From Desulfomonile tiedjei (GTDB taxonomy: Bacteria; Desulfobacterota; Desulfomonilia; Desulfomonilales; Desulfomonilaceae): a stretch of 64,000 nucleotides of DNA. Shown here piece after piece: positions 62,455 to 64,000 of the stretch. Every line of letters starts with the position of its first letter. Position 1 is the first letter of the stretch. Under the pieces are notes generated by a model. The model ran no database searches and had not been told where the DNA came from. It worked only from the letters and a program-made list of their open reading frames with translations. The stretch covers positions 124,001-188,000 of the forward strand of contig JACRDG010000032.1 of NCBI GenBank assembly GCA_016218715.1, in the 5' to 3' direction. A program made the translations under genes and the position numbers.

Positions 62455-63225
62455 TCAGGATCTGTCTCTGGGGCACAGATCCAGGAAGAGGAGCGTTGCA
62501 CCGACCACGGCGACCGGGATGAAGAGCAGGTTGACCACCGGTATCGATGCCATGACAACGCTGCCGAGCCCAAAGCCGAAGACCGCACGCAGCCGCGACC
62601 GGAGAAAGCCCTTCTTCTCTTCCCACGAGAATCGGCGGCGATCCATCGGGTATCCGAGGTACTCGTAGGAAAACATGTAGGCGGAAAGTAAAGCCCCACC
62701 GACCGTATAAATCAAGTGACCGAGGCCCGGAATCAGGAGCAGCGGGAGTCCTCCCACCATCAGCGCCAGATAGATCCCCAGGATTTTCAGCGAATGGTGG
62801 AGAGACCGCAGTGAGTCCTTCAGGAGCAGGATCACCGAAAAAGGCTCTTCATCTCCGATCCCGGTGGCCAATTGCTCGGTTCTCTGGGAGATCAGGTCGT
62901 TGAAAGGTGCAGCCAGGGCAGAAGCAATGCGGGTAAAGAGGAAGACGACGACCAGCGTCACCACCACCGCGACCAAGACGACTACTGCGTAGTAGACGAC
63001 TTGCCCGTACCATGCGGAGGTGTCGACGAACCGGGAGATGTTCCCGGAGAGCTTGTACAAGAGGACGTACGTCCCGCCCACGAGAACCGTGCTGATAGCT
63101 GTCGGTGCCGCTGCATACTTCCACAGGCTCCGATGGGTCCACAAAAATCGCGCGCCCCGGACTACGTAGAGCAGAGACGAGAGAAGCGAAATCGCAGGCA
63201 CTACTGTCCTGTGCTGCAGTTCCAT
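62455..63225 (-). CDS. EI24/CysZ-family membrane protein
   Basis: 256 residues with four to six hydrophobic segments (YVVRGARFLWTHRSLWKYAA, VVYYAVVVLVAVVVTLVVVF, ILGIYLALMVGGLPLLLIPG, GLGSVVMASIPVVNLLFIPV). The layout matches the EI24/CysZ (DUF540) family; CysZ transports sulfate in enterobacteria, but here no sulfur genes are adjacent and transport of sulfate is not proven. The ATG at 63225 has GGAGG five bases upstream. Confidence 0.83.
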   Translation of the reverse strand: MELQHRTVVPAISLLSSLLYVVRGARFLWTHRSLWKYAAAPTAISTVLVGGTYVLLYKLSGNISRFVDTSAWYGQVVYYAVVVLVAVVVTLVVVFLFTRIASALAAPFNDLISQRTEQLATGIGDEEPFSVILLLKDSLRSLHHSLKILGIYLALMVGGLPLLLIPGLGHLIYTVGGALLSAYMFSYEYLGYPMDRRRFSWEEKKGFLRSRLRAVFGFGLGSVVMASIPVVNLLFIPVAVVGATLLFLDLCPRDRS

Positions 63226-63300: not shown

Positions 63301-63528
63301 TCACGTTCGCGATTTGATCGCAGAAGCTACTTCGCCTTCATTGGGAAACCGACCACGCTCCTTCTTGGAAAAGAGGAGCTTCCCACGATATTCGACCTCG
63401 AACACCCCGCCGCTGGCCGGGATCAGTTCCACGTCTATGCCGAATTCCCTATTCAACTCATCAGCCAAACTGGCAGCTCTCGGCTTGTAGTTTCAAACCG
63501 AGCAGTAGGTGATCCTGCAGTCCTTCAT
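63301..63528 (-). CDS. SelW/Rdx-family selenoprotein, UGA decoded as selenocysteine
   Basis: 75 residues when the in-frame TGA at 63493-63495 (minus strand) is read as selenocysteine (U, residue 12). It reads MKDCRITYCSVUNYKPRAA, the C-x-x-U redox motif of SelW, and continues with LIPASGGVFEVEYRGKLLFS and GRFPNEGEVASAI, the family's thioredoxin-like body. A candidate bacterial SECIS hairpin (GCC-AGUUU-GGC) starts about 18 bases after the UGA. A clear promoter lies upstream. The start is the ATG at 63528 (GGAGG 11 bases upstream) or 63546. No sel genes are in the window. Confidence 0.9.
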
Positions 63529-63716: not shown

Positions 63717-63915
63717 TCTTTTAGAAGAGTAAGAACCAGTGCTATCCGGGCCCGACTGGCGCCGGCAGGTGCAATCATCTGATTCGCTTGCCGGTAAGAC
63801 GCAAGAATTGGACGACTCCGCTCGATTTCCAGTGCACTGCCTACGGTCGTATCCAAAAGGAATGCACCCCAACTTCTCCGGCGTACTGCGGGATGCAAAT
63901 CAGGACAGGAGGCAC

Positions 63916-64000
63916 ATGGTGCATGTCCCGGTGCTCTTACACGAAATGCTTGATGCCATCAGGCCTCGCTCCGGCGGGGTGTACCTCGACGGAACACTGG
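63916..64000 (+). CDS. rsmH: 16S rRNA (cytosine-1402-N4) methyltransferase, start only
   Basis: The first 28 codons read MVHVPVLLHEMLDAIRPRSG and continue into VYLDGTL, the RsmH/MraW N-terminus just before the SAM-binding loop, cut by the window edge. The product methylates C1402 of 16S rRNA and the gene usually opens the dcw (division and cell wall) cluster. The ATG at 63916 or the GTG at 63919 is the start; AGGAGG at 63907-63912 favours the GTG. Confidence 0.9.
   Translation, partial: MVHVPVLLHEMLDAIRPRSGGVYLDGTL

Follow-up and report, generated by a model that had tools for sequence, protein, structure and literature searches.

The minus strand of the window, as the whole 64-kb stretch of DNA analysed is termed here, contains a selW-like gene of 75 codons interrupted by an in-frame UGA, together with a promoter-like sequence, a hairpin following the UGA and a gene for a CysZ/EI24-like membrane protein, while rsmH lies on the plus strand (Table 1). 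Translation of the frame gives MKDCRITYCSV-U-NYKPRAASLADELNREFG...IKSRT before the stop; with the UGA read through, the product sequence in full is MKDCRITYCSV-U-NYKPRAASLADELNREFGIDVELIPASGGVFEVEYRGKLLFSKKERGRFPNEGEVASAIKSRT. This is the single in-frame UGA between the ATG and the terminal TGA. When the region was re-translated, the frame, the C-x-x-U motif and the coordinates reported in a first-pass annotation of this DNA were reproduced exactly, and the TATAAT promoter that it mentioned corresponds to a promoter-like match, TTGCAA-17-TATAAT. A GGAGG sequence, resembling a ribosome-binding site, is found approximately 11 nt upstream of the ATG. According to the standard code, the region yields only a 60-residue ORF (63675-63493) that ends at the in-frame UGA, in agreement with the earlier claim that standard annotation misses the gene. 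The selW-like gene is a clean case of a missed selenoprotein, with annotation by the standard code truncating or losing it.

Table 1. Positions of the selW-like gene, its signals and the neighboring genes in the window.
Feature	Position	Strand	Remarks
selW-like gene	63528-63301	minus	75 codons (U = codon 12) and stop TGA
Start ATG of the selW-like gene	63528-63526	minus	
In-frame UGA, read as selenocysteine	63495-63493	minus	U of C-x-x-U; UGA at the same site in homologs
Stop TGA of the selW-like gene	63303-63301	minus	
Sigma-70-like promoter, TTGCAA-17-TATAAT	63605-63577	minus	10 of 12 consensus matches; consensus match only
Predicted bacterial SECIS hairpin, CUGCCAGUUUGGCUG	63476-63462	minus	22 nt 3' of the UGA; G of the loop at 63470; conserved across homologs
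CysZ/EI24-like membrane protein gene	62455-63225	minus	PF07264, E 3.7e-39; possible operon partner
rsmH (MVHVPVLLHEML...)	63739-64000	plus	Named by reading the sequence; divergent from selW

Profile searches, performed with the protein in which Cys was substituted for U, revealed matches to the Pfam Rdx family (PF10262; 74.9 bits, E 6e-21; curated cut-off 22.6 bits) and to the NCBIfam SelTWH family (NF041051; 102.7 bits, E 9.4e-30; curated cut-off 88 bits). Positions 3-73 of the Rdx profile align with P0001 residues 16-83, flanking U23 (P0001 numbering) on either side, and the CRITYC segment that precedes the UGA belongs to the conserved domain. A C-x-x-C/U redox motif is present near the N-terminus as YCSVU and is aligned in 88 loci. 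When the Cys-for-U protein was used as query, relatives in the PDB included selenoprotein W (2npb) and several bacterial Rdx proteins, and the nearest named relatives of the protein, 57-66% identical, come from Desulfomonilaceae/Desulfomonile assemblies, placing the organism most likely within or close to that family. The assignment to SelW had earlier been said to fail should homology be lacking beyond the UGA; as judged by both the profiles and the homologs, homology runs through and past this codon. The gene is thus predicted to encode a small SelW/Rdx redox protein, with a full Rdx domain once the UGA is read through. No further Rdx gene was found in the genome.

The first-pass annotation had also proposed that the organism possesses the whole Sec-decoding set, and had named the absence of selB or selC as what would speak against the gene. 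Both are present. Genes for SelB (384 bits) and SelA (590 bits) were found on one contig, selD (370 bits) at G000:C85:75991-76908, and selC, encoding tRNA-Sec, with a score of 71 bits and the anticodon TCA. Since the draft assembly, although listed as 99.99% complete, is also listed with 3.71% contamination, the nativeness of this machinery was checked. The GC and tetranucleotide profiles of the contig stretches carrying the Sec genes match those of the window to about the degree seen between different parts of the window. SelA is 61-73% identical to the SelA of other genomes in the same family, selA being present in 18/18 genomes of the family and tRNA-Sec scoring above the cut-off in 16 of the 18. 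Given these identities, this distribution and the matching composition, the Sec machinery is native to the genome. Further tRNA-Sec-like matches in the relatives were rejected, as these proved to be tRNA-Cys, tRNA-Trp and tRNA-Leu. The selD of this genome is a selenoprotein gene as well, with an in-frame TGA in the active-site motif KTAGUASK. A codon-usage scan of the 64-kb window for other genes with an in-frame UGA gave no convincing candidate, although the scan missed SelW itself and is, as such, insensitive.

Conservation of the UGA was considered in homologs of increasing distance. Within the family, homologs were detected in 15 of 18 genomes, including all eight of the most complete, each 55-69% identical and always with one TGA at the same place. 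In a sample of the phylum, the gene was found in 41 of 297 genomes, with TGA in 38 of the 41 and Cys at the UGA site in the three matches without a stop (TYCTQC, EFCGVC); because the query used to find the homologs resembled the Sec form, the proportion of Sec to Cys forms does not represent a census. UGA occupies the same site in homologs from Poribacteria, Acidobacteria, Myxococcales, Actinomarina and others, and was seen at the aligned site in all 88 of the extracted loci, the present locus included, with C-x-x-U in every homolog extracted. A UGA retained among homologs, with Cys taking its place in others, is the pattern by which bacterial selenoproteins are recognized. In the comparison with the closest relative compared, differences downstream of the UGA fall at codon positions 1, 2 and 3 in 16, 10 and 32 cases, respectively, corresponding to a dN of 0.26 versus a dS of 1.26, the latter being near saturation. 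The coding part that follows the UGA is thus under purifying selection.

These observations bear on the possibility that the gene is a selW pseudogene or the outcome of an assembly error, with the TGA being a nonsense mutation or a sequencing mistake at what was formerly a Cys codon. That the genome is a draft assembly and that the window's copy of the hairpin contains a mismatch, as described below, could be cited in support of such an origin. However, UGA is found at exactly the same codon in all family homologs and, across phyla, in independent assemblies, and the part downstream of it is maintained by purifying selection. A pseudogene or a sequencing error can therefore be excluded, with the likelihood of either being vanishingly small.

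The possible SECIS hairpin noted earlier was next considered in an ungapped alignment of the homologs anchored at the UGA. In this alignment, nt 20-25 pair with nt 29-34 around a 3-nt loop; its first nucleotide is G in 73 of the 74 distinct sequences, most loops reading GUC or GUU. This register was the best of 106 tested, with 94% of cells paired as compared to a mean of 38% over all registers. Because conservation of the amino acid sequence could yield part of such a signal, pairs joining third codon position with third codon position, scored across 53 sequences sharing less than 90% similarity, served as the real test. Standard pairing was seen at pair 21-33 in 47 of the 53 sequences (expected, 29.5) and at pair 24-30 in all 53 (expected, 40.8); none of 5,000 permutations reached either value, although these covariation figures are indicative, as the permutation test ignores relatedness. 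The two are the strongest among all third-third pairs tested in the stretch. In this manner, the predicted hairpin is seen to be kept across the 53 non-redundant homologs by way of compensatory third-position changes, as expected of a bacterial SECIS, such that the homolog set supplies a SECIS well supported by covariation.

In the published model of the bacterial SECIS, the hairpin lies 16-37 nt after the UGA, its loop spans 3-9 nt and has G as the first or second nucleotide, and its free energy is -7.5 kcal/mol or lower (PMC13188914). The hairpin of the window agrees with this model in terms of spacing (22 nt) and loop (GUU, with the loop G). Pair 21-33 is, however, a U-U mismatch in the present copy, leaving a 4-bp conserved core of about -4.1 kcal/mol, as compared to the -7.5 kcal/mol of the model. 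The 42-nt region of this copy folds at -9.5 kcal/mol, but as a different structure, and for the isolated 45 nt, the predicted ensemble favors another fold, with the hairpin not being the minimum-energy fold. As judged by these folding models, the weak point of the case is the window's own hairpin. The earlier proposal of a SECIS thus holds in terms of an element conserved in the family, yet one that is predicted to fold weakly in the present copy. The conserved form could be favored by SelB binding or by the ribosome.

Insertion of Sec competes with termination. Together with the weak appearance of the SECIS in the window's copy, this leaves room for the UGA serving mostly as a real stop, with the product being largely truncated or with a shorter protein beginning after the UGA. 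Such a reading is, nonetheless, very improbable, if slightly less so than a pseudogene, given that CRITYC, upstream of the UGA, is part of the conserved domain, that all of the extracted homologs have C-x-x-U at the active site and that the genome decodes Sec. Based on the sequence comparisons presented here, the selW-like gene is almost certainly functional, with UGA at codon 12 being translated as selenocysteine. By the known bacterial mechanism, SelB would recognize the short stem-loop just after the UGA and bring Sec-tRNA-Sec to the ribosome. The product would be a thioredoxin-like protein of the Rdx type, 75 residues long and equipped with a C-x-x-U redox pair; by analogy with its family, it most likely acts as a small selenol/thiol oxidoreductase.

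That SelW is a known family, as stated in the first-pass annotation, is borne out by the literature. Bacterial SelW-like selenoproteins containing CxxU, including those of Deltaproteobacteria, have been known since 2005-2006 (PMC1088965, PMC1794560, PMC2398784). Both the Sargasso Sea survey (PMC1088965) and the GOS survey (PMC2398784) found SelW-like proteins to be the most abundant selenoprotein family. Such proteins are listed for Deltaproteobacteria, Geobacter and Desulfotalea among them (PMC1794560), and Thermodesulfobacteriota are known to be selenoprotein-rich (PMC13188914). The present gene shares with the bacterial SelW-like selenoproteins (PF10262/TIGR02174/NF041051) a small Rdx domain, C-x-x-U, a Sec encoded by UGA, a SECIS right after the UGA and a host with selA, selB, selC and selD. 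It differs in that its hairpin is weaker than in relatives and in being followed by a CysZ-like gene; nothing essential differs. With eukaryotic selenoprotein W (PDB 2npb), it shares the Rdx sequence family and the redox motif, whereas the eukaryotic SECIS lies in the 3' untranslated region rather than inside the coding region, as here. A search of a limited literature collection for Desulfomonile together with selenoprotein found nothing. As SelW-like selenoproteins have long been known in Deltaproteobacteria and other bacteria, the selW-like gene is one more ordinary representative of a well-known gene type, and knowledge of SelW or of Sec decoding is unchanged by it.

Examination of the neighboring region revealed that the CysZ/EI24-like gene begins 75 nt downstream of selW and is similarly oriented, suggesting that the two may be co-transcribed. 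In five further genera of the family, such a gene likewise lies 3' of selW in the same orientation, with 82-289 nt between the matches, whereas none was detected after selW within the flank examined in genera g2, g200 and g206. It is conceivable, albeit rather unlikely, that SelW and the CysZ/EI24-like protein are conserved in this Desulfobacterota family as a functional pair, for instance with SelW serving a membrane transporter of sulfur or selenium oxyanions as its selenol redox partner. On the other side of selW lies a cell-division cluster that is transcribed away from selW; as named from reading the sequence, it opens with rsmH, followed by genes for a penicillin-binding protein and for a MurE-like product.
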